From: a virus
DNA: 25,608 bases
Direction: 5' to 3' (one strand)
IMG/VR virus record: IMGVR_UViG_3300035034_000844
Span: 1 to 25,608 of that record
Shown: positions 9,329 through 25,302 of the stretch, piece after piece
How positions within the stretch are numbered: position 1 is the stretch's first letter
Layout of the letters: each line of letters starts with the position of its first letter
Notes under the pieces: model-generated
Told to the model about the DNA's origin: nothing
Databases searched by the model: none
Seen by the model: the letters and a program-made list of their open reading frames with translations, nothing else
Position numbers and translations under genes: made by a program

Positions 9329-9583
9329 ATGTATACACAGTGTAAATACGTTGTATTAGAACAAGAAGACGGTGATCAGATCAAAACCAGAGAGAATATC
9401 TATGTTTTCCCTGCCCATGTCGTCCACAAAGTAGTAGCAAACAGAATGAGAGGCACCGTAGTGAGTGCAGGTTTCGTCAAACGAGGCACAAAGGGCAATC
9501 TATTCTGTCACGGTCGTTCTGAATCTCTAGGTGTCGTATCCAGAGAGAAAGATACTATGTTGTTAATGGAGTTATTTGCATGA
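9329..9583 (+). CDS. hypothetical protein, 84 aa, ahead of the clamp loader
   Basis: No recognised family. Two starts are possible. ATG 9296 has no ribosome-binding site and lies before the predicted RNA start; ATG 9329 has AAGGAA upstream (spacing 12) and is preferred. The core (YVVLEQEDGDQIKTRENIYV, FPAHVVHKVVANRMRGTVVSAG) suggests a small beta-rich fold. It ends in an ATGA overlap with the gp44 gene, so it is probably translated with it and may have a replication role. Confidence 0.7.
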   Translation: MYTQCKYVVLEQEDGDQIKTRENIYVFPAHVVHKVVANRMRGTVVSAGFVKRGTKGNLFCHGRSESLGVVSREKDTMLLMELFA

Positions 9584-10491
9584 ACCAAACCCCCTACGAA
9601 TTCAAGTACCAACCAAAGTCATTTGATGAAATGATTGTAGCCGAAGATATCAAACCCGTCCTCAAGAAAGCCCTTGATGAACTACCAAGTCTTATCCTAT
9701 CTGGTCCTCCCGGAACAGGTAAGGGAACATTCGTTGATATCTTGAAAGCCACGAATCCTGATATTGATATCCTTAAAATTAACTGTTCAGATTACACCAG
9801 TATCGATGATGTCCGAGACAAGGTTAAACCCTTTGCACAGGCAATCGGATTTGGTGCGCTCAAGATCGTCTTCCTAAACGAAGTTGATTACCTGTCACAT
9901 AATGGGCAAGCAATGCTCCGTGACCTGATTGAACAGACCCAGAAATACACCCGATTCATTCTGGCGTGTAACTATCCCCATAAGATCATGGACGAAATGT
10001 TCTCCCGTTGCCAACATATTGAGTTGAACAACCCACCAGCGATTGATGTTGTTAAACGTTGTTGGAGTATCCTTGACCAAGAGGGTGTCACATACAATAA
10101 GAAAACCGTTGTAGATATGATCAAATCTATCTGGACAAAGAAACCAGACGTAAGACAGGCACTAGTTGCCCTACGAATGAATGTCATAGATAATGTATTA
10201 AGAGAAAACTTTGTCTTATCAGCATCCGATGAGGTCTATGGAGAGGTCTTGAAAGGTCTGTCTGGTGGTGATCTAGAAGGTATCACAAAGACTTTGAAAT
10301 CAAATACTATAGATTATGTCCAACTTTACAGATATATTGGTGATTCTATAATGAAGGATGATATCTGGAAAAATTACGGAGTTGCTATTGAACTGGTAGG
10401 TGAACACGCTTACCGAGATAATGGTCACGCCAATAGAGAAATAAACTTTAGGCACATGTGTGTAACAATGATGAGAAGAGAGGTAATATGA
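9580..10491 (+). CDS. 44: sliding-clamp loader ATPase subunit, T4 gp44 family
   Basis: A 303-residue AAA+ ATPase that, with gp62, loads the gp45 clamp onto primed DNA. Walker A is GPPGTGKGT (about 41-49). The Walker B region reads KIVFLNEVDYL, with Asn where DExx normally has Asp. Sensor 1 is in ILACNYPHKI and the SRC arginine finger in MFSRCQHI. C-terminal helices form the collar. T4 gp44 is 319 aa. The ATGA overlaps at both ends bind it tightly to its neighbours. Confidence 0.93.
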   Translation: MNQTPYEFKYQPKSFDEMIVAEDIKPVLKKALDELPSLILSGPPGTGKGTFVDILKATNPDIDILKINCSDYTSIDDVRDKVKPFAQAIGFGALKIVFLNEVDYLSHNGQAMLRDLIEQTQKYTRFILACNYPHKIMDEMFSRCQHIELNNPPAIDVVKRCWSILDQEGVTYNKKTVVDMIKSIWTKKPDVRQALVALRMNVIDNVLRENFVLSASDEVYGEVLKGLSGGDLEGITKTLKSNTIDYVQLYRYIGDSIMKDDIWKNYGVAIELVGEHAYRDNGHANREINFRHMCVTMMRREVI

Positions 10492-10709
10492 GTAGTCAAA
10501 AACAGAGAAGACGTAACAGGAAGTTTGAGGTAACAGACGATGTGCTTCAGAAGTTACAAGAAGCGATGAACGACAAAATTAAACCTGATTACAAGGAAAA
10601 ACGAGATGGCAAAGGTAAAGGCAAAGGCAAAGGCAAAGGCAAAACCCAAGAAAAAGGGGAGTCACCTAACGGAAGTGCTGAACGCAATCAACCTCAAGGA
10701 ACCGTGTAA
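10488..10709 (+). CDS. small basic protein overlapping gp62
   Basis: A 73-residue frame starting in an ATGA overlap with gene 44 behind AGAGAGG. It begins SSQKQRRRNRKFEVTDD and ends in (GK)n repeats. Its last 104 bases are also the first codons of gene 62 in another frame, including the hexanucleotide repeat. Very basic; perhaps binds nucleic acid. The good start and coupling support it, but it could be a leader that couples translation of genes 44 and 62. Confidence 0.65.
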   Translation: MSSQKQRRRNRKFEVTDDVLQKLQEAMNDKIKPDYKEKRDGKGKGKGKGKGKTQEKGESPNGSAERNQPQGTV

Positions 10710-10992
10710 CTACAATCCTAAAGAGGTCAGTGCGTGGGTTATTTCTCTGTTTCTATCAGAAGACCCAAATCTCATTGAAATCGTTAGTGAAATGAACAAA
10801 AATCATTTCACCCTTGACGATAGGCTCATTTTCAAGTATTATGTTGAAAAAGTTCCACAGAAACGCAGATACATAAAGTTCACTAAAAAGTCACAAGAGT
10901 CCAAAGACAAAGAAGACGATGTTAAATACTTAATGGAAACGTATGGTGTCTCAAAACGTGAGGCGATACTTTCACTACAAGGAAAGGGTTAA
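10606..10992 (+). CDS. 62: clamp loader small subunit, T4 gp62 family
   Basis: A 128-residue protein. The core aligns with T4 gp62: LNAINLKEPCNYNPKEVSAW against the T4 segment around residues 43-60, and FKYYVEKVPQKRRYIKFTKK against the T4 segment with VPRGKRYGKW. Position directly after gene 44 fits. It is shorter than T4 gp62 (187 aa), missing much of the C-terminus. The N-terminus is a low-complexity Lys/Ala tail from the hexanucleotide repeat. It acts with gp44 in clamp loading. Confidence 0.85.
   Translation: MAKVKAKAKAKAKPKKKGSHLTEVLNAINLKEPCNYNPKEVSAWVISLFLSEDPNLIEIVSEMNKNHFTLDDRLIFKYYVEKVPQKRRYIKFTKKSQESKDKEDDVKYLMETYGVSKREAILSLQGKG
10608..10644 (+). repeat. hexanucleotide GGCAAA repeat read in two frames
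   Basis: About six tandem copies of GGCAAA (one variant GGTAAA). They encode Lys-Gly repeats in the 10488 frame and Lys-Ala repeats at the N-terminus of gp62. Copy-number changes by replication slippage would keep both frames. Confidence 0.85.
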
Positions 10993-11306: not shown

Positions 11307-12044
11307 ATGAATATCAATGTAAACAACCTTCAAACGATCATTAAGAAGGCAACGCTTAACTATGTAATCCCCTCTGTTCACCTGAATGTAACAGGTCAAC
11401 AGGTAAGTTCCAAAATGAGAAGTCAGGGTAACTCTGTGGTAATCTGGTTAGATTTACCTAATGATGTTATTACAGACATCCCTGATGCCGTAGACCTAAA
11501 CTTTGACGAACCAAACGTTAATGTCAAACCGTATCTAAATCTGATTGATAATGATATCTGTCAGATTACGGTCAATGATGCCGGTCTACAGTTGAAAGAT
11601 GGTCGCCAGAAGACAAACCTGTTTTTCTGTATGCCGTCAACCGTCACCACATTTTCAGGTGATACCCCGAACGTTACACCATTCCACGAAATTGAGTTGA
11701 ATGATGAGACAAAGGGATATTTCGACAAAATTCGTAAGATCGCAGGTAAATTTGAGGTCGTATACTTCACTGTAAGGAACAATAAGTTCTACATTGAGGC
11801 AACAGACCGTTCCAATCGATACGTTAACGGAATCAGTTTTGAACTAGCTGACGTAGAATGTAATGACTTGGATATCTGTATTGAATACAAGAACTTCAAT
11901 GCTCTCCTACAGGTCATTGATAACAATTTTACAAACTTTAAGGCAAGTTTCTCTTGGCTTGAGGCTCAAGAAAGTGGTATGGTATCATTTATAAGAAATG
12001 ATGATAAAGAGAAATACTATCTTCTACAAAAGATGGATGATTAA
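11307..12044 (+). CDS. 45: DNA polymerase sliding clamp, T4 gp45 family
   Basis: A 245-residue protein with the organisation of T4 gp45 (228 aa), the trimeric processivity clamp of phage DNA polymerase, which in T4 also activates late transcription through gp33/gp55. The N-terminal segment and the alternating strand pattern fit, and the gene lies just after 44 and 62. Order here is 44-62-45, while T4 has 45-44-62. The presence of TATAAATA late promoters fits a clamp-dependent late system. Confidence 0.85.
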   Translation: MNINVNNLQTIIKKATLNYVIPSVHLNVTGQQVSSKMRSQGNSVVIWLDLPNDVITDIPDAVDLNFDEPNVNVKPYLNLIDNDICQITVNDAGLQLKDGRQKTNLFFCMPSTVTTFSGDTPNVTPFHEIELNDETKGYFDKIRKIAGKFEVVYFTVRNNKFYIEATDRSNRYVNGISFELADVECNDLDICIEYKNFNALLQVIDNNFTNFKASFSWLEAQESGMVSFIRNDDKEKYYLLQKMDD

Positions 12045-12560: not shown

Positions 12561-12589
12561 TTGACATACAAGATACAAATTGATAAGAT
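12561..12589 (+). promoter_or_regulatory. strong sigma-70-type promoter of the ubiquitin-like gene
   Basis: TTGACA (12561-12566), 17 bp, TAAGAT (12584-12589) preceded by TGA. A perfect hairpin TGAACGA/TCGTTCA (12600-12606/12612-12618) falls at the start of the expected 5' leader and may stabilise the mRNA or act as an operator. Confidence 0.85.
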
Positions 12590-12645
12590 GTAACTCACTT
12601 GAACGAATAACTCGTTCACAACTTTAAACGAAATGGAGAAAGATT

Positions 12646-12867
12646 ATGGCTGAAAACACAACTCTGACAATTAACGGTTCCACTACTACCATCGCTGATG
12701 GTTCCTCTTTCCGAGACACCGTGGTTAACGCCGCACGTGACGCAGGATTGGGTAAGTTCCGAGTTATCCTGAATGGGTCTGAGATTGACCCGGCAGACGC
12801 ACCTGAGACTCTGGATGCAGGTATGTCTCTGGAAATCCGTCCTTATGAGGTTGCCGGTTCTAAGTAA
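12646..12867 (+). CDS. ubiquitin-like beta-grasp protein
   Basis: A 73-residue protein with the ThiS/MoaD/ubiquitin-like plan: TLTINGSTTTI hairpin, helix (FRDTVVNAARDAG), FRVILNGSEID strand, AGMSLEIRPYEVAGSK end. In such proteins the C-terminal Gly is adenylated by an E1 and joined to a target. Here a single Gly is followed by Ser-Lys, so a protease, perhaps the JAB enzyme encoded downstream, would have to trim two residues. AATGGAG precedes the start; it is a single-gene transcript between promoter and terminator. Confidence 0.75.
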   Translation: MAENTTLTINGSTTTIADGSSFRDTVVNAARDAGLGKFRVILNGSEIDPADAPETLDAGMSLEIRPYEVAGSK

Positions 12868-12886
12868 TCGAAATGATTGAAGTTTT

Positions 12887-12910
12887 GGGGTTGATTATTC
12901 AACCCCTTTA
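12887..12910 (+). terminator. terminator of the ubiquitin-like gene
   Basis: GGGGTTGA (12887-12894) pairs perfectly with TCAACCCC (12899-12906) around loop TTAT, followed by TTTA. Confidence 0.8.
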
Positions 12911-12960
12911 CTTTATTCGGTCACACCAGTAACCTTTGTAGGGTATACTTGTTTTTACCA

Positions 12961-12989
12961 TTGACAACCACCACCAACATGTATAAGAT
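12961..12989 (+). promoter_or_regulatory. sigma-70-type promoter of the E2-like gene
   Basis: TTGACA (12961-12966), 17 bp, TAAGAT (12984-12989), the same boxes as the promoter at 12561. Start near 12996; AAAGGAA precedes the gene at 13023. Confidence 0.85.
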
Positions 12990-13022
12990 GTTCGTATAAT
13001 TGAAACGAAAGGAATTTGTAAT

Positions 13023-13931
13023 ATGACTGCATGGAATGTAGACACAGCAGAAGCACTAAAAACTGATATGGAATCAACCCTTGACGGTATTAATATCGAC
13101 GATGTTAAATCAGAGGGTATGACCGTCCGCATCGGTGGTAAGGTTGTCAAACTTCAATTCACAGAAGAGGTCACTCTACCCGAAGATGAAATTCGTGAAG
13201 AGTATTCCGCAAAACTCACCGAAAAACTTCAATTGATCAAAGGTATCCTCAACGAGAAAATGTCAGAAATGACATATATGGTTGAACAGAACCGACAAGA
13301 CTTTGAAGAAAAGGAACGTGAATTACAAGCTCGTCTTTCCGAGGCGAACTTGATGCCGAATATCACTTACGATCAAGCCAAAGCAGGTCTATCGGTAGTC
13401 AAGGGTCATAAAGACTATCGTGGAGATGCTGACGTAATGACTTGGTTATATCAAGGGGTGTATTGGCCGAAGTTTGTTGACTCAAAACCGATTGACCCGA
13501 AATACGCCAAACGGTTGATTTCACCTGTCACACTGGAAATTGTCACCGTCAAAGATCGTGTTCGTTCCGTAACGGTTCGTAAAACCATCGGTCTTGCCAA
13601 ATTCCGCCACTACCACTCAATGGGTGGTGATAATGACTGTTGGGGTCAATGGAGCATCCCGACTCGTTGGGCTGAACCAACGGATATCCTTGGAATCGCA
13701 CAACACGCCATGGGTGTTCTTGAAAATGTTAATACTCGTTCACCGGGTGATCAATCGCCAAGTGGTCTTCCGAGACTTAGCACACTATCCCAACACGTTT
13801 TGACGGGTGATGCCGCAAGGAACGTTGAATACACTACAAGTCGTGCAGATGAACGAGCAGGTATTGAACGGGAAACTGATCGTGGTGATCAGGAAACAAG
13901 AGGTCGAACTGGTCAGGTTTGGTCTACTTAA
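13023..13931 (+). CDS. candidate E2-like ubiquitin-conjugating protein with coiled coil
   Basis: A 302-residue protein. Residues 55-108 form a charged coiled coil. Residues 165-245 read like an E2 fold core: strands (SPVTLEIVTVKD, SVTVRKT), then HYHSMGGDNDCWGQW with His196, His198 and Cys206, the usual spacing of the HxH/HPN motif and catalytic Cys, then WAEPTDILGIAQHAMGVLE and VN, matching the W-x-P and helix after an E2 active site. The C-terminal 60 residues are polar and probably disordered. It would carry the ubiquitin-like protein as a thioester. Fold assignment is by pattern only; position between the Ubl and E1 genes supports it. Confidence 0.5.
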   Translation: MTAWNVDTAEALKTDMESTLDGINIDDVKSEGMTVRIGGKVVKLQFTEEVTLPEDEIREEYSAKLTEKLQLIKGILNEKMSEMTYMVEQNRQDFEEKERELQARLSEANLMPNITYDQAKAGLSVVKGHKDYRGDADVMTWLYQGVYWPKFVDSKPIDPKYAKRLISPVTLEIVTVKDRVRSVTVRKTIGLAKFRHYHSMGGDNDCWGQWSIPTRWAEPTDILGIAQHAMGVLENVNTRSPGDQSPSGLPRLSTLSQHVLTGDAARNVEYTTSRADERAGIERETDRGDQETRGRTGQVWST

Positions 13932-13942
13932 TCTCTCCGAAA

Positions 13943-13975
13943 AAAGGGGATTCTTAACGGAATCCCCTTTCTTTT
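13943..13975 (+). terminator. terminator of the E2-like gene
   Basis: AAAGGGGATTC (13943-13953) pairs perfectly with GAATCCCCTTT (13960-13970) around loop TTAACG, then CTTTTT. The same loop TTAACG is seen in the hairpin at 3165. Confidence 0.85.
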
Positions 13976-13994
13976 TAAAACGAAGGATAATAAA

Positions 13995-14291
13995 ATGAAA
14001 CAGCTCATTTTTGGATTTGTACCACAAGGCGCTATTGAAGATGGCGATTCTTGTTTTGCCATTTCATACAAAGAAGATTTTGAACGTGATGGATATATGA
14101 ACGACACCTATGAAGATGAATGTTATCCAATGTTCAACGGATGGGGTGAAATTCAGATCAACGAACTCATGGAATCAATTTTTGAGTATCCTGAGAATGC
14201 CGCCGATCTGGTTCAAGTATATCTTGAAACATTTAATCTTCAACGACACGCCGAATTTGAGGATTATTTATCTACAGATATTTGGGGTTGA
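13995..14291 (+). CDS. hypothetical acidic protein, 98 aa, in the Ubl locus
   Basis: No recognised family. It starts 63 bases after the E2-like gene, just past its terminator, with GAAGGA as site and no clear promoter of its own, so it depends on read-through. Very acidic (many Asp and Glu), with a helical C-terminal half. Its placement inside the Ubl/E2/E1/JAB cluster suggests a related role, for example a substrate or adaptor, but nothing in the sequence shows which. Confidence 0.7.
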   Translation: MKQLIFGFVPQGAIEDGDSCFAISYKEDFERDGYMNDTYEDECYPMFNGWGEIQINELMESIFEYPENAADLVQVYLETFNLQRHAEFEDYLSTDIWG

Positions 14292-14316
14292 CAACCGATA
14301 AATTCTGATATACACT
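14288..14316 (+). promoter_or_regulatory. sigma-70-type promoter
   Basis: TTGACA (14288-14293, overlapping the previous stop), 17 bp, TACACT (14311-14316). Serves the gene at 14346. Confidence 0.75.
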
Positions 14317-14345
14317 GGTCTTGTCTCTAACAAAAGGATATGACA

Positions 14346-14690
14346 ATGACCAAAAAAGAACTCCGTGGAAAAATTGAAACCGTTCTTGTCCGTAAGGATA
14401 AGGTTGGTATGAATGCCGTTGGTCGTGCTTTGGTTCATTTGAAGAATCGCCAAACCGCTGATGAACAACGGTCAGAAGAAACCAAAGTACAGAATGGTAT
14501 GGGGTTTCAACCGGCTCATGCTTTCATGGGAACCAAAATGGCAACTTTCTACGAACAGCGTGGATTTCTATCACCGAAACAGGTTGACTACTGGCAGAAT
14601 CCTCATGGTAAACTCAACAAACCTCGTATCACCCGTTATTGGAAACAGTTAATGCAAGAAGCGGAAATCAAGATGGGTGAAAAGTTGTGA
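14346..14690 (+). CDS. conserved-looking hypothetical protein, 114 aa, in the Ubl locus
   Basis: ATG 14346 is preferred to ATG 14340 because AAAAGGA then has 7-base spacing. The middle reads NGMGFQPAHAFMGTKMA, then GFLSPKQVDYW and RITRYWKQLM; I have the impression of similar small proteins (NGxGF, then KQ) in other mobile elements but know no assigned function. Basic overall. It has its own strong promoter and sits between the E2-like and E1-like genes. Confidence 0.7.
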   Translation: MTKKELRGKIETVLVRKDKVGMNAVGRALVHLKNRQTADEQRSEETKVQNGMGFQPAHAFMGTKMATFYEQRGFLSPKQVDYWQNPHGKLNKPRITRYWKQLMQEAEIKMGEKL

Positions 14691-14691
14691 G

Positions 14692-14720
14692 TTGACAACC
14701 AATAAATCATTAAGTATACT
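14692..14720 (+). promoter_or_regulatory. consensus-like sigma-70 promoter of the E1-like gene
   Basis: TTGACA (14692-14697), 17 bp, TATACT (14715-14720), one base from full consensus. Start near 14727; AAAGGAA precedes the gene. Confidence 0.88.
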
Positions 14721-14757
14721 GTATAAACATTAACATTTAAACGAAAGGAACAAAAAT

Positions 14758-15348
14758 ATGTCCATGTTAGAACGTCAAGATTTAATTGAAGGTATTAATA
14801 CAGATATCAAGGTCTGTGTAGTCGGGGCAGGTGGTATCGGTTTTCACGTAGCCAAAGGTCTGGCTATGTCAGGTGTTGAAGACTTGTATGTTTTTGACCC
14901 CGATACGTTGGAAGAGTCTAATCTTAATCGATTGGATTTGACAGTTGACTTCATCGGTAAGAATAAAGCCGATATCGTCCGAGAGGTCTGTAAGTCTCTC
15001 CGACCTAAATGTAACGTCAAACGATTCCCATTTCCAATGAAGGAACATACGTTCCCCAAAGGGGTAGATTGGGTTATTGACTGCACCGATAACCACGCCT
15101 CTCAACTGGCGAACCAGAAAATGGCAGATGACAACGGTGCCAAGTATCTGAAGATTGGATATGATGGCACTCGTATGAGTTTGAATGACCGTGTTGCTCA
15201 ATGGGATGCAGGGGAAACCCAAGATGGATATCGTGTCACTCCAAGTTGGGCGGCACCGGCAATCATTGTTGCATACTTAGGTGTTGCTAAAGTTCTTAAG
15301 TATCATAACGGTGAAATGGGTTGTGATTTATCTGAAATGTATCGGTAA
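14758..15348 (+). CDS. E1/ThiF-like adenylating enzyme
   Basis: A 196-residue ThiF/MoeB/E1 superfamily protein that would adenylate the C-terminus of the ubiquitin-like protein. Seen: VCVVGAGGIGFHVAK (glycine loop, 23-28), DPDTLEESNLNR with the ATP-contacting Asp47/Asp49 and Arg58, Lys70, and IDCTDN (108-112). It is short (ThiF is about 245 aa), with no CxxC zinc pair, and a catalytic Cys is not obvious; Cys189 in GEMGC is conserved in the orphan copy downstream. Its 3' end, from codon 134, is duplicated beyond an inserted homing endonuclease gene, and the last 46 bases overlap that gene on the other strand. Confidence 0.85.
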   Translation: MSMLERQDLIEGINTDIKVCVVGAGGIGFHVAKGLAMSGVEDLYVFDPDTLEESNLNRLDLTVDFIGKNKADIVREVCKSLRPKCNVKRFPFPMKEHTFPKGVDWVIDCTDNHASQLANQKMADDNGAKYLKIGYDGTRMSLNDRVAQWDAGETQDGYRVTPSWAAPAIIVAYLGVAKVLKYHNGEMGCDLSEMYR

Positions 15349-16001
15349 TATAAAACGGATATATCTTTATAACTCCTACTTCCACTCTTTAATAGTTGTC
15401 TAAAAGAAGCGTAGTTGTAGGAGTTATCATTACACCATTGTTTGAGATTGATTATTGATTGTTCTATACCATCTTTTTCTATGGTTAGTTGATGCTTACA
15501 TCGCCTTGATTTTTCTGACTCACTGTGACGGTAATTTTCTTTCATCCATTTACTATGATTTTCTCTGTGGATAGGATCATTCACCGCAAGTTTATGTTTT
15601 TCTATGACTTCTGGGCGTTTCATGGGGTTATTTTCTCCACAAAAAGATTGCATTGCTTTGTGTGTATTCTTTTGATGTTTATCTATCAACTCTTTTGAGG
15701 GATTTATCATAGGACTTGTATAACCACCACCTGTCATGTTATATCCATTAGGTATTAATGTTTCAAACTTATCAATAAAAGAAATCTCTTTTTCATTAAG
15801 TTCGTTTAAAGTATTACATTTACACACCACTGACCAACTAAAATCGGTTTGGTCATATTTCATTAAAGACCTATGAAATACATTATCACTACCACAACGG
15901 GCATTACCGTAGTGGACACTTTTTCTTCTCTGTAATGTTTTTGTTGTCTGCCCGATATATATTTTACCATTGACGAGATTGGTTACTTTGTATATGATCA
16001 T
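15303..16001 (-). CDS. GIY-YIG homing endonuclease inserted at the E1 gene
   Basis: A 232-residue protein starting MIIYKVTNLVNGKIYIGQT, the GIY-YIG catalytic opening, with Arg in LQRRKSVHYG, Glu in LNEKEISF and GYNMTGGGY. The middle NPMKRPEVIEKHK resembles a NUMOD3 DNA-binding repeat, and the C-terminal INLKQWCNDNSYNYASFRQLL a NUMOD1/IENR-like helix-turn-helix, as in T4 Seg/Mob enzymes. It cuts related genomes to spread itself. AGGAG precedes the start; a late-promoter octamer lies 18 bases upstream. The frame from 16232 to 16002 is a shadow of the orphan E1 end. The stop lies inside the E1 gene. Confidence 0.9.
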   Translation of the reverse strand: MIIYKVTNLVNGKIYIGQTTKTLQRRKSVHYGNARCGSDNVFHRSLMKYDQTDFSWSVVCKCNTLNELNEKEISFIDKFETLIPNGYNMTGGGYTSPMINPSKELIDKHQKNTHKAMQSFCGENNPMKRPEVIEKHKLAVNDPIHRENHSKWMKENYRHSESEKSRRCKHQLTIEKDGIEQSIINLKQWCNDNSYNYASFRQLLKSGSRSYKDISVLYYRYISDKSQPISPL

Positions 16002-16018
16002 TTTTAATCTCCTAATAG

Positions 16019-16026
16019 TATTTATA
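16019..16026 (-). promoter_or_regulatory. T4-type late promoter for the homing endonuclease
   Basis: TATAAATA on the minus strand (TATTTATA on plus), followed by an AGGAG site and the start at 16001. Confidence 0.65.
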
Positions 16027-16031
16027 TAAAA

Positions 16032-16229
16032 GGCTATGATGGTGAACGAATGAGTTTGAATGACCGTGTTGCCACTTGGGATACGGGTGAGACTCAAGAC
16101 GGTTACCGTGTGACACCAAGTTGGGCTGTTCCTGCCATTATCATCGCCTACCTTGCTGTTGGTAAGGTTCTGAAATACAACGGTGGTGAAATGGGTTGCC
16201 ATATGAAAGATTTCTACAACGCCGCATAA
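16032..16229 (+). pseudogene. orphan 3' end of the E1-like gene
   Basis: Translates as 65 residues from GYDGERMSLNDRVATWD to a TAA stop, homologous without gaps to E1 residues 134 on (GYDGTRMSLNDRVAQWD) but diverged at the DNA level and ending in KDFYNAA instead of SEMYR. It lies just beyond the homing endonuclease and lacks a start or nucleotide-binding part. It is probably the original end of the gene, displaced when the endonuclease arrived with a substitute end. Confidence 0.85.
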
Positions 16230-16233
16230 CAAG

Positions 16234-16262
16234 TTGACAATGGTATAGGGGTAGTGTAAACT
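16234..16262 (+). promoter_or_regulatory. sigma-70-type promoter of the JAB gene
   Basis: TTGACA (16234-16239), 17 bp, TAAACT (16257-16262). Start near 16269; AAAAAGGAA precedes the gene at 16292. Confidence 0.82.
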
Positions 16263-16291
16263 ACCTCTATACTCATAAAAAGGAACGAATT

Positions 16292-17695
16292 ATGGCAAAA
16301 CAAAGTTGGTGGCAACGCCAAAACTTCAATAAAAATAAAAATAGAAAGAACAAACGAAATCAACCGAAAGGAAAGAATATGACAGAAAAACCAGTAACAC
16401 CTATTGCCGTGGGGAAAGAATTGACTGAGGCAGAATTTCAGCAAGTTATGGAAGCCCACAATACAGGTGGTGCTTTCAAACAAGCCGTCGGACAATCCTG
16501 TTGGGATGCCGGAATTGAGATTCTATCCAATTGTGGAAAGATGAAGGTTCCCTCGTATCATATTCAATTTGATCTGTTGGCACATCAAAAGATCAATGCC
16601 CTCAAGAAAGCATATCCATCTTTGGAATGGTTGGCTTATCTTGTTGGTTCGGTAAATCACGAAACCAATTTGGTCAAAGTTGAAGACCTGATTATCCCTG
16701 ACTCTCAAAAAGTCACAGGTGCGAGTGTCTACAACGTAGAATACACTTGGCCCGTACTTCCCGAAGGAAAGATTATAATTGGTGTTATCCATAGTCACCA
16801 CACAATGGGAGCATTTTTCTCTGGAACTGATGACGCATATATCAACCAGAACCATGATGTTTCTATCGTTGTCGCAACCGCTAAAGGTCGTGAAATCAAG
16901 AGTCAAATTCGTGTCAAGACTCCATGTGACGCTTATGTTCTGGCAGAAGATATCACATACTCTGTCAATTATCCTCAAGTCTTGGATGAAGTGGCTTTTG
17001 AGACTGAATTTAAATCTAAAATTTCGTCTTACACCCCGGTCCAGTATATAAATTACAGGGGTAATTACTTGGGAAACTCATCAAGGGGTTATTCACACCG
17101 AGGGATAGGTAGCGGTGGCACAAACAGATTTTCGGGTAACCCCCCTCGCAATTCGGAATCCCAGATGGGCTTCGGTTACGATACCGAAGATTTGGAAGAT
17201 GAGTTTGACAATCCATACTTGATGAGTTCCGAAGAACTGAAAGACAACTTGTTGGATTACTACAACCCGACTGAGGTTGATGAGTGGATGAATCAAGGAT
17301 TCCAGATTGCGGCTCAAGAGTTGAATATCGTTCAACAACTGTGTCAAGTAGGGGTAGATGTCCGGACCGACAATGATAAAGATTGGGATACAGATGTCCG
17401 AACCGACAATGATAAAGATTGGGATACAGATGTCCGAACCGACAATGATAAAGATTGGGATACCGATATCATCTTAGAACTTGATGAACTTGATGCTGAA
17501 CTTGATGAACTTGATGCTGAACTTGATGAACTTGATGCTGAACTTGATGAACTTGACAATGATACCAATCCACAAAATGGTTTAGGTCAGGTATCAAGGG
17601 GTGTTCCTCTAGGTGACCAAGATAACGGAAAGGTGGTCTGGTCAACAGGTGACAATTCCGAAGATACCAGTGATATCAAACAAGTAATGAACTAA
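16292..17695 (+). CDS. JAMM/JAB-type isopeptidase with Asp-rich repeat tail
   Basis: A 467-residue protein. The JAB/MPN+ domain covers about 85-240: Glu112 in LEWLAYLVGS and the zinc motif HSHHTMGAFFSGTD (His167, His169, Ser177, Asp180), an exact HxH-x7-SxxD. Such enzymes remove ubiquitin-like proteins from targets or trim their C-terminus. The N-terminal 30 residues are basic. A Gly/Ser/Asn linker (about 250-300) and an acidic helical region follow, then three 12-residue and three-plus 7-residue tandem repeats rich in Asp/Glu (356-422). It is the last member of the Ubl/E2/E1 cluster and has its own promoter and terminator. Confidence 0.88.
   Translation: MAKQSWWQRQNFNKNKNRKNKRNQPKGKNMTEKPVTPIAVGKELTEAEFQQVMEAHNTGGAFKQAVGQSCWDAGIEILSNCGKMKVPSYHIQFDLLAHQKINALKKAYPSLEWLAYLVGSVNHETNLVKVEDLIIPDSQKVTGASVYNVEYTWPVLPEGKIIIGVIHSHHTMGAFFSGTDDAYINQNHDVSIVVATAKGREIKSQIRVKTPCDAYVLAEDITYSVNYPQVLDEVAFETEFKSKISSYTPVQYINYRGNYLGNSSRGYSHRGIGSGGTNRFSGNPPRNSESQMGFGYDTEDLEDEFDNPYLMSSEELKDNLLDYYNPTEVDEWMNQGFQIAAQELNIVQQLCQVGVDVRTDNDKDWDTDVRTDNDKDWDTDVRTDNDKDWDTDIILELDELDAELDELDAELDELDAELDELDNDTNPQNGLGQVSRGVPLGDQDNGKVVWSTGDNSEDTSDIKQVMN
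17357..17464 (+). repeat. three 36-bp tandem repeats in the JAB gene
   Basis: Three nearly identical 36-base units each encode DVRTDNDKDWDT. The DxDxDxD spacing recalls calcium-binding loops (dockerin or thrombospondin type 3), though no conserved Gly is present. Copies differ at only one or two bases, so the expansion is recent or maintained by conversion. Confidence 0.92.
17477..17557 (+). repeat. 21-bp tandem repeats in the JAB gene
   Basis: Three full copies and one partial copy of a 21-base unit encode ELDELDA, predicting a regular acidic helix with Leu every 3-4 residues (coiled-coil heptad). Confidence 0.92.
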
Positions 17696-17723: not shown

Positions 17724-17761
17724 GGGGTGGTCGCCGTAAAGGTGATCACCCCCTTTTTTTT
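17724..17761 (+). terminator. terminator of the JAB gene
   Basis: GGGGTGGTC (17724-17732) pairs with GATCACCCC (17744-17752) with one G-T pair, then a run of eight T that merges into the next late promoter. Confidence 0.85.
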
Positions 17762-17785: not shown

Positions 17786-18088
17786 ATGTCTATAAAATCT
17801 ATTTGGGAGTTCTGTCTCCCTCTTGTATCGGAAAAGAATGATGAAGGTGTGTTTAAGAGAGCATCTTTAGGCAGGGTTGCATTCTGGGTAGTATTCAGTA
17901 TGGCAATCTATGTGTGGATGTTCACTACAGGTGATATTCAACCTGCACATCTACAAATGTTATATATTACAACTACTTACAATCTAATGAAAAAAGCATC
18001 TTGGTTTGGTAATTTCAAATCTGGCGATTCCAGTATGTCGATAAACCAGACAAAACCAGAAGATAAAGAACCAGCACCAAGAATATAA
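17786..18088 (+). CDS. small membrane protein, holin candidate
   Basis: A 100-residue protein. A hydrophobic segment at about 30-48 (VAFWVVFSMAIYVWMF) and a weaker one at about 55-68 suggest one or two membrane spans; the C-terminus is charged and Pro-rich. First gene after a late promoter and directly before an i-spanin/o-spanin pair, which is where holins or holin-like proteins often lie. No lysozyme gene is in the window. Identification is by context and topology, not by family match. Confidence 0.55.
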   Translation: MSIKSIWEFCLPLVSEKNDEGVFKRASLGRVAFWVVFSMAIYVWMFTTGDIQPAHLQMLYITTTYNLMKKASWFGNFKSGDSSMSINQTKPEDKEPAPRI

Positions 18089-18100
18089 GGAGATACTAAT

Positions 18101-18529
18101 ATGTGGATGACACTGTTACAAGGAGTGTTGAACAGACCGTGGATAATAGCAATGGCTTTTATGTTGATATTCATGGGTTATCAATGGGTCAACATAAACT
18201 CCCTGAAAGGAGATATCGTAGACCTAAAAGATGATATTGTTGATATCAGGGGAAATTACAACACCTGTAAGACCAATGAAGGAACATTGAATGGCGCACT
18301 GGATAGTTATGCTTTTCAAGTGACTCAGTTTGAACAGAACATTGAACTACTGGAAGGTCAGATTGTTAAAGAGAAGGGTAGAGTGGTGTACTGGCGAGAT
18401 AAATACAACAACAAGATATGTATTACATGTCCAGAACAAACATGTGAGAATCCAACAGATGTGGAGGTATTGACAAATGAATCGAGTCTGGATGTTATTA
18501 ATCGTATTAACACTATCTTTAAGCCTTAA
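18101..18529 (+). CDS. i-spanin (Rz-like inner-membrane lysis protein)
   Basis: A 142-residue protein with an N-terminal membrane anchor (about 13-32, PWIIAMAFMLIFMGYQW) followed by a long coiled-coil-like periplasmic helix (35-110) and a Cys-containing tail (CITCPEQTC). This layout, together with an overlapping lipoprotein gene, is that of Rz/Rz1-type spanins, which fuse inner and outer membranes at the end of lysis. The TAAGGAG site precedes the start. Confidence 0.78.
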   Translation: MWMTLLQGVLNRPWIIAMAFMLIFMGYQWVNINSLKGDIVDLKDDIVDIRGNYNTCKTNEGTLNGALDSYAFQVTQFEQNIELLEGQIVKEKGRVVYWRDKYNNKICITCPEQTCENPTDVEVLTNESSLDVINRINTIFKP

Positions 18530-18794
18530 TGGATGTGGATGGTTACATGGACAGTTGGATAGTTATTGTCCTGAATGTAAGGTAAAGGTAGAGACAGTGT
18601 ATCATTATACACATTGTCCTGTAGATGAAGTGCCGAATTATGTTGAACTGAGAACCGAAGATCATATTGGTTCAGTTAATAATGTAAATATATTGATACC
18701 AAATTTTGAAATCCTTACAGAATACAACAAAAGCCTTATAAATACAATTAAATGCTATGAAAAACAACAAGTGGAGAAACCAAATGAAGATTGA
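18477..18794 (+). CDS. o-spanin (Rz1-like outer-membrane lipoprotein)
   Basis: A 105-residue protein starting inside the i-spanin gene in another frame (53-base overlap), behind GGAGG (18463-18467). The signal peptide MNRVWMLLIVLTLSLSLNGC ends in lipobox LNGC, so Cys20 would be lipidated. The mature part (86 aa) has several cysteines (CPEC, HCP) but little Pro. The overlap with an i-spanin is typical of spanin pairs. A late promoter lies within its 3' end. Confidence 0.8.
   Translation: MNRVWMLLIVLTLSLSLNGCGWLHGQLDSYCPECKVKVETVYHYTHCPVDEVPNYVELRTEDHIGSVNNVNILIPNFEILTEYNKSLINTIKCYEKQQVEKPNED
18737..18744 (+). promoter_or_regulatory. T4-type late promoter of the internal-protein cassette
   Basis: Exact TATAAATA inside the o-spanin gene, 39 bases before the first leader-bearing gene at 18784. 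Confidence 0.72.
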
Positions 18795-19023
18795 CGAAAC
18801 GGTAGACAAATATCTGAGTGAAAAGCGAGACAGTGATATGATGGTTATGGCAAAAGAAATCTCATACAAGACCGCAATCAACCCAGATGCAGTTATGAAG
18901 TATTTCAAAGTCAAAAATATCACTGATATGTTAGCCGCAAATGATATTATGGTAAAGCATTCAAAAGACAAGTCATGGACTAAGCTATCTGCTGAAATCC
19001 TGAACACTAAGGGAGTTCTGTAA
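18784..19023 (+). CDS. cassette protein with capsid-targeting-like leader, 79 aa
   Basis: ATG 18784 is chosen because GGAG (18773-18776) precedes it and the product then opens with the shared motif: MKIDETVDKYLSE|K. In T4, internal proteins start MKTYQEFIAE|A and are cut after Glu by the prohead protease; the (L/I)-x-E match suggests this protein is packaged and trimmed. Mature part about 66 residues, helical, basic. No further family recognised. Stop overlaps the next start (TAATG). Confidence 0.72.
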   Translation: MKIDETVDKYLSEKRDSDMMVMAKEISYKTAINPDAVMKYFKVKNITDMLAANDIMVKHSKDKSWTKLSAEILNTKGVL

Positions 19024-19331
19024 TGGATATTCTAGAGAAGATCGACAACAAATTAAGCGGAAATCTAAATGAAGGCGATTCCAAGTTCCGCAAACCAGTT
19101 GAAGCGGTTGCGAAGCAAATAAAATCTATGATGGAACAAGCTATCAAAATGGAAGACCGAGCAAGTCAAATATACGATAAGATCACAGATAAAATGAATA
19201 CCGATACTACTCAAACAGAAATGGGTCAAGTTCAAGCCGAACTCATGGAAGTTGTTGATGCCGCAAATGAATTGTATCAAAAGACTAAGAAGGCTTGGAA
19301 AGAAATTGATAACATAGGGTCACGGTTTTAA
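19023..19331 (+). CDS. cassette protein with capsid-targeting-like leader, 102 aa, helical
   Basis: Opens MDILEKIDNKLSGNLNE|G, a lengthened version of the shared leader. The rest is almost entirely charged helix and looks like a coiled coil (VAKQIKSMMEQAIKMEDRA, VQAELMEVVDAANELYQKT). GGGAG lies before the start. No family recognised; role in the head or injected with DNA is inferred from the leader and the late promoter. Confidence 0.72.
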   Translation: MDILEKIDNKLSGNLNEGDSKFRKPVEAVAKQIKSMMEQAIKMEDRASQIYDKITDKMNTDTTQTEMGQVQAELMEVVDAANELYQKTKKAWKEIDNIGSRF

Positions 19332-19721
19332 ATGAGATTACAGACCTATCTTAGTGAAGGTGATGGTGATTTTGATTTGAGTAAACGTATTGTCTTTTCA
19401 TGGAAGGGTCACAAGATTGTTGACACGGCTCATGGAAAGGAGCGCATTGAACAGCGCAACACCCTTACCGATTTTCAGTTAATTAAGATGTTCCAATCAG
19501 CGATAATGAAGGTGGATAAAAAGAAGGTGAAGATCGGTGAAAAGATCGTATTCTGGTCAAAAACACTGGGACAAGCCTTTATAGCTAAGGTAGATGATGT
19601 CAAAGACTTGATTTTATTGACATTTTACCCCCGTCACCAGAAACCAAATACAGACGCACACCCATGGCAACGTGAGGTTGTTATTGAAGGTGAATCATTA
19701 AGAGTTGTGGAGTTGGATTAA
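19332..19721 (+). CDS. cassette protein with leader and DUF4258/RelE-like domain
   Basis: Starts at the base after the previous stop. Leader MRLQTYLSE|G. Residues 28-115 contain HGKERIEQRN, then IVFWSKTLGQAFIAKVDD and LILLTFYP, a strand-helix layout with His/Arg positions like DUF4258 or BrnT/RelE-type RNase toxin folds (helix with HxxxR, then a beta-sheet). If the leader is functional, this would be a packaged, possibly injected RNase-like protein. Fold call is tentative. Confidence 0.7.
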   Translation: MRLQTYLSEGDGDFDLSKRIVFSWKGHKIVDTAHGKERIEQRNTLTDFQLIKMFQSAIMKVDKKKVKIGEKIVFWSKTLGQAFIAKVDDVKDLILLTFYPRHQKPNTDAHPWQREVVIEGESLRVVELD

Positions 19722-20443
19722 TGAAAAAGTTCTTTGATGAGTTAAATGAATCAACGATTACAGGTGGCTATCCCGATAGCGGCACTGTTAAAGGTGTATC
19801 AACGGATGATGATTTGCCGACAGGTACTACCGTGTTTGGTGATAAGATGGTTAAGGTTGAAGTAGAGAACCGCCTGACAGGTAAGACAATCAAGTATGTT
19901 CCTGCTGATGAAGTTGGTCAGACATGGAATTATGATGAATTTGAACACTCGAAAGGTATGGGTTCGTATGACTCTTATTCGGATACATTGGATGGTTTGA
20001 AAAATCTCCTTGGTGACCGACTCTGGAAACATACCAGCGCCAAAAAACAAACCCTTGGAATTGACAAAGTGATTGCCAGATCAGAAACCGATATAGATCA
20101 AGACACTAAATTAGCAGATGATAAGGACGATGAAACTATGGATATACAAGAGAAGATTGACCGTTACTTAGATGAACCAGAAGAAATCAATGAAGAAATT
20201 GTAGATGCTTCTGATAGGAAGGTATTGACCAGAGCGATTATGAGTGGCAAAGCCTCAAAATTGAAGATCAAAAGTTTAGGTATAGATGCTACACTTGAGA
20301 ATGATGGTGAAGAGGTGACAATACAATACCCTAAGAGTGATGACTTTACACTAACACTAGTGGATATCTCTGATGCTCTTGGTTATTCTTTTGATGTAGG
20401 AAAAAATAAAGGTAAAACTGAATTTACAATTTATATAAATTAG
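19721..20443 (+). CDS. cassette protein, 240 aa, with a second leader inside
   Basis: Leader MKKFFDELNE|S at the N-terminus. At residues 140-152 a second leader-like sequence appears, MDIQEKIDRYLDE|P, beginning with an ATG (20138) that has AAGGA upstream. The polypeptide is therefore either a fusion of two cassette genes or carries a nested start for a 101-residue protein. The first half is polar; the second half (160-240) predicts a small alpha/beta domain (LKIKSLGIDATLENDGEEV). Start overlaps the previous stop (TAATG). Confidence 0.72.
   Translation: MKKFFDELNESTITGGYPDSGTVKGVSTDDDLPTGTTVFGDKMVKVEVENRLTGKTIKYVPADEVGQTWNYDEFEHSKGMGSYDSYSDTLDGLKNLLGDRLWKHTSAKKQTLGIDKVIARSETDIDQDTKLADDKDDETMDIQEKIDRYLDEPEEINEEIVDASDRKVLTRAIMSGKASKLKIKSLGIDATLENDGEEVTIQYPKSDDFTLTLVDISDALGYSFDVGKNKGKTEFTIYIN
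20138..20443 (+). other. possible nested in-frame gene starting at an internal leader
   Basis: Same frame as the 19721 gene. ATG 20138 with AAGGA (20123-20127) would yield a 101-residue protein beginning with a complete leader MDIQEKIDRYLDE. Alternatively the internal Glu site could be cut by the prohead protease, releasing the C-terminal domain from the fusion. Confidence 0.4.
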
Positions 20444-20454
20444 GGAGATTGACG

Positions 20455-20997
20455 ATGGAAGAATTAGAAAGCACTAAGATATTAATGGTAATTCCAAAGA
20501 CTAAGGTTGATAATATCTGTGAGAAATTTCTGGATGCTTTACAGAGTGCTGGCAATACTGTAGAGATTTTCGTTAATGCCTCCAAACGTGATATTAAAAG
20601 TGCCCGTGATGCAGAGGGTGCTTACTCCAAGAATATCCGGTTCATAGCTGATGGTAATACCAAGAAGATTTATTGTTGGAATGCGGCATTGTATTTACAC
20701 GCTAATATGTTACGTTGGTTGAAAGATAATGGGTATATTGCTAGTAATGTCAAACTCTATAATGACCCTGATGTTACGTCTGGGGAGTGGAATACCAGTG
20801 ATGATGTTGAGTTGTTTTACAATGTCAACTGGGGACCAGCAGAAATGGGTAATGTAATTATGGATGGAGATTGGTCATGGGTTGGTAAGACAGGTTTCAA
20901 GGACTTTGAGCGTAAACTTCTTAGAACTGTTTACAAGGAAATGAAAGCCAATGGTAAAGATATTGACCCGGCAGTTGCTAAAGCGGCGGGATTTTAA
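20455..20997 (+). CDS. cassette protein, 180 aa, SKR-domain paralogue, no clear leader
   Basis: ATG 20455 is chosen for its GGGAG site (7-base spacing). Residues 35-85 (VEIFVNASKRDIKSARDA, then IRFIADGNTKKIYCWNAALY and MLRWLKDNGY) are similar to the protein at 21308 (TEVFLNPSKRELKDAIAV, YRFMVDFKKKEFYAWTDRIF, IMTWLRDEQ). The shared domain is unknown to me. Unlike its neighbours it lacks an evident leader; MEELESTKIL is only loosely similar. Its stop overlaps the next gene by one base. Confidence 0.72.
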   Translation: MEELESTKILMVIPKTKVDNICEKFLDALQSAGNTVEIFVNASKRDIKSARDAEGAYSKNIRFIADGNTKKIYCWNAALYLHANMLRWLKDNGYIASNVKLYNDPDVTSGEWNTSDDVELFYNVNWGPAEMGNVIMDGDWSWVGKTGFKDFERKLLRTVYKEMKANGKDIDPAVAKAAGF

Positions 20998-21311
20998 TGA
21001 AGTTAGAGAAGTATTTGACAGAGAAGAAAGAGGAAAAGAACCTTTATACCTTCAAAGGTAAGCCTTTCTGGTCAGGTGCTTATGACTTCATAGATGGTTT
21101 TATCTATGAGGTATATCCTTATGAAACTGCAGAGGAATCAGATTTTCACCATTCAATGTATTTCAGTAACAAAGCAGTTGCTAAGATGGCGAAGGAAGAG
21201 TGGGGATTCTTCTGGATGGATGATAGAGGTCTTAATACAATGTGGCGAAATGGGGAAGATGCCCCGAAACAGGTACAGAAATCTATTATGAAACAGGTAA
21301 AGAAACGATGA
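20997..21311 (+). CDS. cassette protein with capsid-targeting-like leader, 104 aa
   Basis: Leader MKLEKYLTE|K. The rest is rich in aromatic residues (PFWSGAYDFIDGFIYEVYPY, WGFFWMDD) with a basic C-terminus. No family recognised. It starts in a TAATG overlap and ends in an ATGA overlap, and lies between two members of the SKR-domain pair. Confidence 0.72.
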   Translation: MKLEKYLTEKKEEKNLYTFKGKPFWSGAYDFIDGFIYEVYPYETAEESDFHHSMYFSNKAVAKMAKEEWGFFWMDDRGLNTMWRNGEDAPKQVQKSIMKQVKKR

Positions 21312-21769
21312 GGTTTGAGCAATACCTGAATGAGAAATACATTGGAACATATCATGAAATCACTGAGGTTTTTCTAAACCCATCCAAGAGAGAACTAAAG
21401 GATGCTATAGCTGTCACTGGTTATGGGTATAGATTTATGGTTGACTTTAAAAAGAAAGAATTCTATGCTTGGACAGATAGGATATTCCATGATCATATTA
21501 TGACTTGGTTACGGGACGAACAAGGTCGTAATTACCTACCAGACTTTCACTCTTACTGGTACAAAGGTAAAGAAAATGACTTTATATTTACTGGTAGCTA
21601 CAGCACATATGATGGTGGTACTTTTGAGAGCGATCACATGTATACGGTAGAGAAGAATGGAAGTCTTGATGCACTATTAGCTCAAGATATGACATGGCTC
21701 AACAAATACATTGATAGCAAGAAGATGAAAGCCCTTTTCCAAGATTACCGTGACGGAGTAATACATTGA
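21308..21769 (+). CDS. cassette protein with leader and SKR domain, 153 aa
   Basis: Start ATG 21308 in an ATGA overlap with the previous gene; this removes 22 upstream codons of the open frame and exposes the leader MRFEQYLNE|K. Residues 17-60 share the unknown domain found in the 20455 protein (VFLNPSKRELKDA and the FYAW strand). C-terminal half is polar with many aromatic residues. Its stop overlaps a decayed leader (TTGA at 21766). Confidence 0.74.
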   Translation: MRFEQYLNEKYIGTYHEITEVFLNPSKRELKDAIAVTGYGYRFMVDFKKKEFYAWTDRIFHDHIMTWLRDEQGRNYLPDFHSYWYKGKENDFIFTGSYSTYDGGTFESDHMYTVEKNGSLDALLAQDMTWLNKYIDSKKMKALFQDYRDGVIH

Positions 21770-21798
21770 GATTCCAACAACATTAAAAGAGGAATAAA
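21766..21798 (+). pseudogene. vestigial leader of a lost cassette gene
   Basis: TTG overlapping the previous stop, then codons for RFQQH and a stop, almost the same as the start of the 22176 gene (MRFQQHLK). One base missing from the T-run of CATTTA makes the stop. Probably the remains of a deleted member. Confidence 0.45.
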
Positions 21799-21803
21799 AG
21801 ATA

Positions 21804-22175
21804 ATGACAAAATTACGAGAATTTTTAAATGAGAGTTGGATAGATGTATTAAACACCGCAAAACTTTCAGTCGCTTCTACTGGATTTGTCAGAGAACTTG
21901 ACAAGTTTTATAAGAAAGGTAAATATGTTGAGTTTGGTAAAATTTTATCCAATTCTAAATCTAAAATAGAAAACATCGACGTGGGTGATAAAAATATAAA
22001 TGATAACTTCGTTGATTTATTATATAGTTCTATCGTAGCCGCTATATCAGCAATAGAGTTAGATATGGGAACTGCGAAGGACGCGACATCAGATAGCGTA
22101 AAAACTAAATATGGTTTGAGCAACGACCAATGGAAACAATTAGAAGGTATGTTTAATATTGGGTCAGGATTATAA
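21804..22175 (+). CDS. cassette protein with capsid-targeting-like leader, 123 aa
   Basis: Leader MTKLREFLNE|S. The rest is helical, with a hydrophobic helix around residues 72-88 (LLYSSIVAAISAIELDMG) that could be membrane-active or a packed core helix, and a basic N-terminal half. GAGGAATAAAAG precedes the start. No family recognised. Confidence 0.72.
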   Translation: MTKLREFLNESWIDVLNTAKLSVASTGFVRELDKFYKKGKYVEFGKILSNSKSKIENIDVGDKNINDNFVDLLYSSIVAAISAIELDMGTAKDATSDSVKTKYGLSNDQWKQLEGMFNIGSGL

Positions 22176-22565
22176 ATGAGATTTCAACAACATTTAAAAC
22201 TGCACGAAGCAGTTCTGAAACATCCGGATATCCCTGCTAATAACCAAAATGGTACTTGTTATCAGGATGCTATGAAGTATATGATGAGTCATAGCACCGA
22301 TAGAGGGTTGATGTTGTGTCACGGTTTAGTCACAGGACAAGGTGACATAGAAGGTGTCATTTATAACCACGCATGGGTAGAGAAGGGTAATAAGGTGATT
22401 GACGAAACTATTCCTATTACTGTTGACAAGCGTGTGTATTATGCTATAGGAAATATCAGTGAGAAGAACGTCTACCGATACACTCACAATGAAATGAATG
22501 AAAAGGTAGTAGAGTTCAAGACATACGGTCCTTGGGAAAAGAAATTAATCAATAACAAATATTAG
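22176..22565 (+). CDS. cassette protein with leader and Cys-His-Asp (papain/transglutaminase-like) triad
   Basis: Starts one base after the previous stop. Leader MRFQQHLKLHE|A. The body has NGTCYQDA (Cys28), YNHAWVEKG (His65) and NKVIDET (Asp76), the order and spacing expected of a papain/transglutaminase-like cysteine hydrolase, where HAWVE and VID form the His and Asp strands. If packaged and injected it could be a protease or amidase acting on host proteins. Fold call is by motif only. Confidence 0.74.
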   Translation: MRFQQHLKLHEAVLKHPDIPANNQNGTCYQDAMKYMMSHSTDRGLMLCHGLVTGQGDIEGVIYNHAWVEKGNKVIDETIPITVDKRVYYAIGNISEKNVYRYTHNEMNEKVVEFKTYGPWEKKLINNKY

Positions 22566-22574
22566 GAGATTATA

Positions 22575-22769
22575 ATGAAAATAGATGAAAAGATAGACAA
22601 TTATTTGAACGAGGATTATCGTAGTGATGATCTGGAACGCCCTGCTATCTACAGTAAACTTGAAAAGGAACGTGACTTCATAAACAAAGCATTGAAACGA
22701 CATGGAGACTTTGATTATTATAAAGCACAATTAGATTTGATTAATAAACTCATCAAAGAATTTAAATAA
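22575..22769 (+). CDS. cassette protein with capsid-targeting-like leader, 64 aa
   Basis: Leader MKIDEKIDNYLNE|D, the clearest form of the motif. The remaining 51 residues are charged helix (YSKLEKERDFINKALKRHG, YYKAQLDLINKLIKEFK), probably a two-helix hairpin. AGGAG precedes the start. Confidence 0.75.
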   Translation: MKIDEKIDNYLNEDYRSDDLERPAIYSKLEKERDFINKALKRHGDFDYYKAQLDLINKLIKEFK

Positions 22770-22775
22770 TAGGGG

Positions 22776-22818
22776 TTAAAATGAATATAACAGAGAAAAT
22801 AGACAAATACTTGAATGA
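22776..22818 (+). repeat. duplicated leader segment, copy 1
   Basis: About 43 bases covering TTAAA, the ATG and the first 12 codons of the 22781 gene recur at 23161-23202, differing only by one missing A. Confidence 0.9.
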
Positions 22819-25261: not shown

Positions 25262-25294
25262 AATACCTAACCCCTTGTGGAATGAACTTATAGG

Positions 25295-25302
25295 TATTTA
25301 TA
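25295..25302 (-). promoter_or_regulatory. T4-type late promoter for the intein-associated endonuclease
   Basis: TATAAATA on the minus strand, overlapping the stop of the N-intein gene and 33 bases before the start at 25261. Confidence 0.65.

Follow-up and report, generated by a model that had tools for sequence, protein, structure and literature searches.

The 25,608-nucleotide stretch of DNA analysed here (IMG/VR virus record IMGVR_UViG_3300035034_000844, positions 1 to 25,608; hereafter the window) represents part of the genome of an uncultured T4-like phage. It encodes, in this order, a ubiquitin-like protein (Ubl) of the beta-grasp type, a protein of UBC fold resembling ubiquitin-conjugating enzymes (E2), a ThiF-type activating enzyme (E1) and a JAB/JAMM peptidase (Table 1), a group of genes that we refer to as the cassette. 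The same 25.6-kb record also encodes a primase, a partial ribonucleotide reductase and a helicase. Its DNA had no match among 50,697 cultured phages, and an Rfam search of the window likewise returned no match. An initial annotation made from the sequence alone had proposed that a T4-like phage encodes a full set of Ubl, E2-like protein, E1 and JAB, and its four open reading frames (ORFs) are where it had placed them. That the phage lineage carries a complete set for ubiquitin-like conjugation and deconjugation is well supported as a prediction, because gene co-occurrence, predicted folds and invariant active sites agree. In a literature search, which was incomplete, we found no report of such a complete set in a phage.

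The Ubl, modelled with AlphaFold2 at a predicted local distance difference test score (pLDDT) of 81, shows the element order of a beta-grasp fold (strand-strand-helix-strand-strand-strand). The best matches of the model in the PDB are ubiquitin, SUMO, MoaD and ThiS, with Z-scores that reach 7.9 and are thus middling, so that the fold assignment rests jointly on element order, size, context and C-terminus. Conservation was counted in alignments of 33 rows (relatives) for each protein. The conserved end of the Ubl is Ala-Gly in 26/33 rows, with Gly as the last residue in 28/33 and Ala or Ser in 5, and it is followed by 0-6 further residues, trimming being needed in 15/33. Both the predicted beta-grasp fold and the small C-terminal residues are hence those of a modifier. 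The E2-like protein consists of a coiled-coil N-terminus, a UBC-like core at about residues 107-260 that holds Cys206, and a tail predicted to be disordered; its model is confident over residues 120-260 (mean pLDDT about 90 for 107-259). When the core was aligned to known structures with VIA-align, ubiquitin-conjugating enzymes made up 48 of the 50 rows, with a best Z of 6.5 across 120 residues. This is a moderate fold match, and it is accompanied by an invariant Cys of the catalytic type. Cys206 and His198 are found in all 33 rows, Cys206 being the sole conserved Cys, and the conserved residues run HYH...C...W...P-x-D-I...LEN-x-N-x-x-S-P. This resembles canonical E2s, in which the order is H-P-N...C...W-x-P...I...L...PN...P. 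A search of 50,697 cultured-phage records with the E2 gave no match. One relative carries two tandem E2 paralogues within a single cassette (L057:4240-5979).

The E1 has an adenylation domain with intact ATP-site motifs, GxGGxG and DCTD, both invariant in the alignment. Among solved structures it is closest to ubiquitin E1, MccB, ThiF, MoeB and UBA5. Apart from the Cys within DCTD, no Cys is invariant among the 33 sequences, so that a separate catalytic Cys is not conserved. In the JAB protein the metal site is intact, with H167, H169, S177 and D180 invariant, as is E112, which lies upstream of the JAMM motif and is a candidate for the additional active-site Glu. Profile matches of the JAB to AMSH-like deubiquitinases are weak (E 0.012). 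Its acidic C-terminal tail contains, at 17380-17560, short stretches that are repeated exactly (DVRTDNDKDWDT three times, followed by ELDELDA repeats). The four assignments of the initial annotation therefore stand: the beta-grasp protein through its model and structural matches, the E2 through UBC-type structures and Cys206, and the E1 and the exact JAMM motif through Pfam and Prok-JAB matches (Table 1) together with the invariant residues. The same annotation had let its system interpretation depend on a beta-grasp Ubl, an E2 fold and co-occurrence of the genes in relatives, and all three were found.

Table 1. Features of the cassette, its surroundings and its relatives (coordinates refer to the window).
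Feature	Position	Strand	Basis or remark
Ubl, 73 amino acids (aa), C-terminus ...PYEVAG|SK	12646..12867	+	beta-grasp by AlphaFold2
E2-like protein, 302 aa, tail ends VWST	13023..13931	+	AlphaFold2, structure alignment, invariant Cys206
E2 C-terminal tail motif VWST	13917..13928	+	Trp conserved; tail predicted disordered
E1-like adenylating enzyme, 196 aa, intact, family length	14758..15348	+	Pfam ThiF 1.2e-24, above cut-off
JAB/JAMM metallopeptidase, 467 aa, long acidic repeat tail	16292..17695	+	Prok-JAB 6.7e-9, above cut-off
Clamp loader large subunit, gp44-like	9580..10491	+	phrog_168 6e-53
Clamp loader small subunit, gp62-like	10606..10992	+	phrog_225 4.9e-19, Pfam Phage_clamp_A
Sliding clamp, T4 gp45-like, conserved upstream neighbour of cassette	11307..12044	+	phrog_223 9.6e-8, linkage
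Promoter-like TTGACA-N17-TAAGAT before Ubl	12561..12589	+	sequence pattern
Promoter-like TTGACA-N17-TAAGAT before E2	12961..12989	+	sequence pattern
Promoter-like TTGACA-N17-TATACT before E1	14692..14720	+	sequence pattern
Promoter-like TTGACA-N17-TAAACT before JAB	16234..16262	+	sequence pattern
Hairpin after Ubl, terminator-like, weak T-run	12887..12906	+	sequence
Terminator-like hairpin and T-run after E2	13946..13976	+	sequence
Terminator-like hairpin after JAB	17724..17761	+	sequence
ORFs of 98 and 116 aa between E2 and E1, not conserved	13995..14690	+	absent from relatives
GIY-YIG homing endonuclease, inserted behind E1	15303..16004	-	Pfam GIY-YIG 7.2e-9; TIGR01453 5.6e-16, above cut-off
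Second, foreign E1 3' end, 68 aa	16023..16229	+	identity comparison
gp23-type capsid gene			in 7/14 partial genomes (contigs) bearing same cassette

A scan of IMG/VR with the JAB, E2 and E1 as queries yielded about 38 distinct contigs, about 30 of which belong to the lineage of the window and carry Ubl-E2-E1-JAB on one strand, mostly with 0-140 bp between the genes. All distinct contigs with the complete set of four genes retain the order, and its recurrence in about 30 contigs whose E2 and JAB identities go down to about 25-35% is more than chance would give. Mantel tests show the distances of all cassette components to be correlated (r 0.55-0.74, p 0.001), and dN/dS ratios of non-synonymous to synonymous substitution of 0.07-0.24 between the relatives L032 and L033 indicate purifying selection where dS is unsaturated; for the window against L028, dS was saturated. 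The lineage is T4-like, as a gp23-type capsid gene occurs in half of the cassette-bearing contigs (Table 1), and gp44/gp62/gp45 are found in the same genomes as that capsid gene. A distant second phage lineage (L068-L072) has the four genes in the identical order; a profile comparison of its E2 with that of the window (hhalign, probability 85%, E 6e-6) gives an alignment that spans both the Cys of the active site and the N-x-x-S segment, and its E2 likewise ends in a Trp tail. Three cassette contigs (L074, L075, L076) were binned in metagenome-assembled genomes of Candidatus Izimaplasma and a Thermoplasmata archaeon, which are either host hints or mis-binning.

In nearly all contigs of the window lineage, the genes for the two clamp loader subunits (gp44 and gp62) and the sliding clamp directly precede the cassette. 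The linkage was also approached from the reverse, unbiased direction with the clamp loader alone as bait, and 39 of the 47 contigs so obtained have cassette genes downstream of the clamp, some of them cut by the contig end. In the other eight, most of which are fragments, no cassette was seen, and E2 and E1 searches of their records came back empty. On the clamp-loader tree, the presence or absence of the cassette requires about five changes, a pattern best explained if the cassette is old, ancestral or close to it, and was lost several times. When all ORFs of the compared loci were clustered, gp44-gp62-gp45-Ubl-E2-E1-JAB was the sole block present in nearly all, the other neighbours varying; the next commonest real gene, for an HU-like protein upstream, occurs in 26/55 loci. 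This linkage to clamp and clamp loader, which was not part of the initial annotation, favours a replication-linked role.

Promoters were searched across the window with the pattern TTGACA-N16-18-TANNNT, which gave six sites against 1.97 expected, a number reached in 2/100 shuffles. Five of the six lie in the cassette block, before the Ubl, E2, ORF 14340, E1 and JAB, so that the early-type promoters earlier ascribed to each gene were recovered separately for all four members. They would fit early expression by the host polymerase. T4-type late promoters (TATAAATA) are neither present before the cassette genes nor enriched; one stands at 17761, behind the terminator, and precedes the next gene, which is holin-like. 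Holin-like and spanin-like lysis genes follow immediately behind the cassette (17786-18794).

The cassette proteins have a further trait in common, a short acidic and aromatic motif around a Trp, of the form [DE]x[VYI]W[SGD][TS] or similar. The Trp is among the final 10 residues of the E2 in 33/33 sequences. Every JAB has the motif inside the JAB domain or immediately ahead of it, and, leaving aside the subgroup to which the window belongs, most Ubls have it close to their N-terminus. A genome-wide count in two relatives showed no enrichment, and the motif thus appears confined to the cassette. Probably it docks the E2, the JAB and most Ubls on a common partner within the system.

From folds, motifs and co-occurrence we infer how such a system would work, including the docking through the tail and the target. 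In phages whose Ubl has a short tail past Ala-Gly, the JAB would trim it, and the single-domain E1 would then adenylate the Ubl C-terminus. The Ubl would next form a thioester with Cys206 of the E2, presumably by transfer direct from the adenylate, since no Cys of the E1 outside DCTD is invariant. The E2 would join the Ubl to lysines of target proteins and the JAB would undo the bond, with the shared partner of the Trp motif binding the E2, the JAB and most Ubls. We regard it as likely, judging from the sequences, that this chemistry of conjugation and deconjugation operates. If the system is active, a bacterial virus would conduct its own regulatory signalling of the ubiquitin-like type, with an E2 family that is unrecognised by any library, and the set would be a small system for studying the evolution of ubiquitin-type cascades.

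Bacteria deploy ubiquitin-like conjugation against phages, and here a complete set near-constantly accompanies the phage replication clamp. The likeliest targets would be components of the phage replisome, the sliding clamp first, because the system, probably made early, is inherited in one block with clamp loader and clamp; the logic would be that of PCNA ubiquitylation and SUMOylation. On the whole we favour, with moderate confidence, a phage-encoded Ubl conjugation and deconjugation system with the replisome as the likeliest target. Clamp or replisome as the main target is a tentative choice, the leading guess among several, and it is a doubtful idea that T4-like phages use their own E1, E2, Ubl and deconjugase to control their own clamp and replisome, with the Trp tail assembling the machinery. 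A number of observations weigh against these interpretations. For the E2 the fold match is moderate (Foldseek E 0.53, Z 6.5); neither it nor the Ubl is recognised by Pfam, PHROGs, NCBIfam or PADLOC, a PDB sequence search gave nothing specific, and no E3 was seen. Since the DNA polymerases of these phages have an LFF-type end in place of the Trp motif, we no longer consider the motif a clamp-binding one. The clamp linkage itself may be mere conserved T4-like synteny: several lineages keep the clamp and have lost the cassette, and in the fetched loci of L068-L072, which keep all four cassette genes, no clamp gene was found, so that the clamp cannot be the system's only reason.

The main rival to the replisome is host takeover or defence evasion, in which the cassette modifies host proteins, or strips a host Ubl of the Bil or CBASS type from phage proteins, and its location is inherited synteny. 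We consider this possible but rather unlikely, and the same holds for host or defence proteins as the main target; other targets account for the remainder. Early-type promoters would suit such a role, sporadic losses are like those of accessory anti-defence genes, related bacterial enzymes act against phages (PMC10097602, PMC11354881), and the E1 is akin to CBASS-type E1-E2 proteins. On the other hand, the phage has a full conjugation arm, which goes beyond a deubiquitinase, the cassette predates its diverse members and is under purifying selection, and its position is fixed, unlike in anti-defence islands, which typically turn over. The bacterial systems themselves, Bil (BilABCD) and CBASS (Cap2/Cap3), also combine prokaryotic E1-E2 chemistry with a JAB-type deconjugase, and the E1 and JAB share superfamilies with their counterparts in Bil, CBASS and the plasmid-borne PRTRC system. 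In contrast to them, the phage set is phage-borne, has no CD-NTase and has an E1 that is a free single domain of 196 aa, whereas Cap2 is an E1-E2 fusion and BilD has two adenylation domains and a further insert (PMC11354881). The Cap2_3 model gave the phage E1 42 bits against a cut-off of 320, and PADLOC matches overlap the ThiF domain only; with E1 architecture and context also different, we do not assign the cassette to Bil or CBASS.

A second alternative is a sulfur-carrier system: a ThiS/MoaD-like protein and a ThiF-like E1 would thiolate a transfer RNA or metabolite, the 302-aa protein not being an E2. The E1 is as similar to ThiF and MoeB as to ubiquitin E1, matches of the Ubl model to MoaD and ThiS are about as good as those to ubiquitin, and the E1 is single-domain and without an invariant catalytic Cys. 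Such a function is nevertheless improbable given the UBC-like fold, the invariant Cys and the E2-type order of the conserved residues around it; moreover, the Ubl ends in AG or AA and not in a strict GG, 15/33 need trimming, and no thiolase or rhodanese is a conserved neighbour.

More improbable still are enzymes that are packaged in the virion or process head or tail proteins, as the JAB and Ubl of lambda-type tail assembly do. The available text of Iyer et al. 2006 (PMC1779556) covers sets in bacteria as well as Ubl-JAB pairs of phage tails and does not mention a phage E1-E2 set; the lambda-type pair there, a Ubl (TAPI) with the TAPK JAB, stands in a tail cluster, lacks E1 and E2 and is expressed late. 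The cassette of the window is without a late promoter, the next gene having one, and its neighbours are replication genes and not tail genes. An E2-JAB-E1 trio (Gp246-Gp248) of the unrelated Salmonella phage Arash was detected in purified particles by mass spectrometry (PMC10585845), in a list that is long (116 proteins) and may include carry-over. These three adjacent genes, published only as structural proteins of the particle proteome (PMC10585845), differ from the cassette in their order. Vibrio phage D69 has a similar adjacent E2-JAB pair, and the E2s of both phages lean to Prok-E2_D below the cut-off; neither phage showed clamp linkage or a recognised Ubl. In crAss001, the JAB gp77 adjoins the ThiF protein gp76 among replication genes, with no recognisable Ubl or E2 and with a long N-terminal extension on the ThiF.

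The plasmid PRTRC system (row 6d of Iyer et al. 2006; Prok-E2_D, PRTRC A/B/C/ThiF) likewise unites Ubl, E2, E1 and JAB on a mobile element, and we fetched its loci and compared them by profile (hhalign). Phage E1 and JAB are related to PRTRC ThiF and PRTRC A (98% and 95%, respectively), but fall short of the NCBIfam cut-offs (PRTRC A, the best match of the JAB, 37.4 vs 101.8 bits; PRTRC ThiF 33.5 vs 144.75). PRTRC loci are ordered ParB-E-C-F-B-A-ThiF, with ParB as partner where the phages have the clamp. Their E2 has a GxxCxG active site with histidines after the Cys, whereas these come before it in the phage HYH...DCWGxW, and their Ubl ends in KG or nearly so, against AG in the phages. The phage E2 reached a probability of 0.16% with the PRTRC B/Prok-E2_D family; an indirect and weak link may run through the distant E2s of L068-L072, which match the PRTRC B active site over a short stretch (2.5%, not significant alone). 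Transfer of a PRTRC-type system to the phage is thus very improbable and membership was rejected, as profile comparison gave no match of the E2 or the Ubl to PRTRC B or C, searches of the phage loci for PRTRC B, E and F gave no matches, a conserved ParB-like neighbour is missing, and gene order and C-terminal motif differ.

Two stretches within the block are not part of the cassette. The initial annotation had counted two proteins of 98 and 114 aa among six co-occurring genes and had suggested them as substrate or adaptor. Both ORFs (13995 and 14340) are present between E2 and E1, the second with 116 aa, and co-occurrence holds for the Ubl, E2, E1 and JAB; scans found no relative of either ORF in the cassette of any relative, where E2 and E1 are mostly only 0-140 bp apart. 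They look like an insertion, and we rejected them as members since they lack relatives in the block. ORF 14340 matches phrog_21015 and, distantly, a sequence elsewhere in L039, while ORF 13995 ends in DIWG, like E2 tails, which, without relatives, may be chance. The second stretch (15303-16229), with the antisense GIY-YIG gene and the foreign E1 3' end, is the footprint of homing with co-carried target sequence; it lies within the range covered by the initial annotation and had gone unmentioned there. The foreign end is 76% identical to the resident tail and 79-81% to the L032/L033 lineage, and the resident tail is 88% like L028. The cassette is intact, the resident E1 being of full length. 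The same position in L009 holds a related endonuclease.

Further features were observed elsewhere in the window and its relatives. About nine consecutive small genes at 18757-23131 have a common N-terminal motif (MKLEKYLTEK, MRFEQYLNEK, MRLQTYLSEG, MNITEKIDKYLNEG and others), which we take to be reminiscent of the T4 capsid-targeting sequences of internal head proteins; the products are possibly packaged and injected. Downstream of the JAB in L130 (13041-14621) lies a gene for a 526-aa protein with relatives in nine loci, presumably a Ro60/TROVE protein to judge by its sequence pattern. On the minus strand of the window (23506-25597), the helicase gene is split by an intein with a Hint-like start at 25298-25597 and a ...VVSN|C end near 24280, and this intein seems to carry a homing endonuclease.

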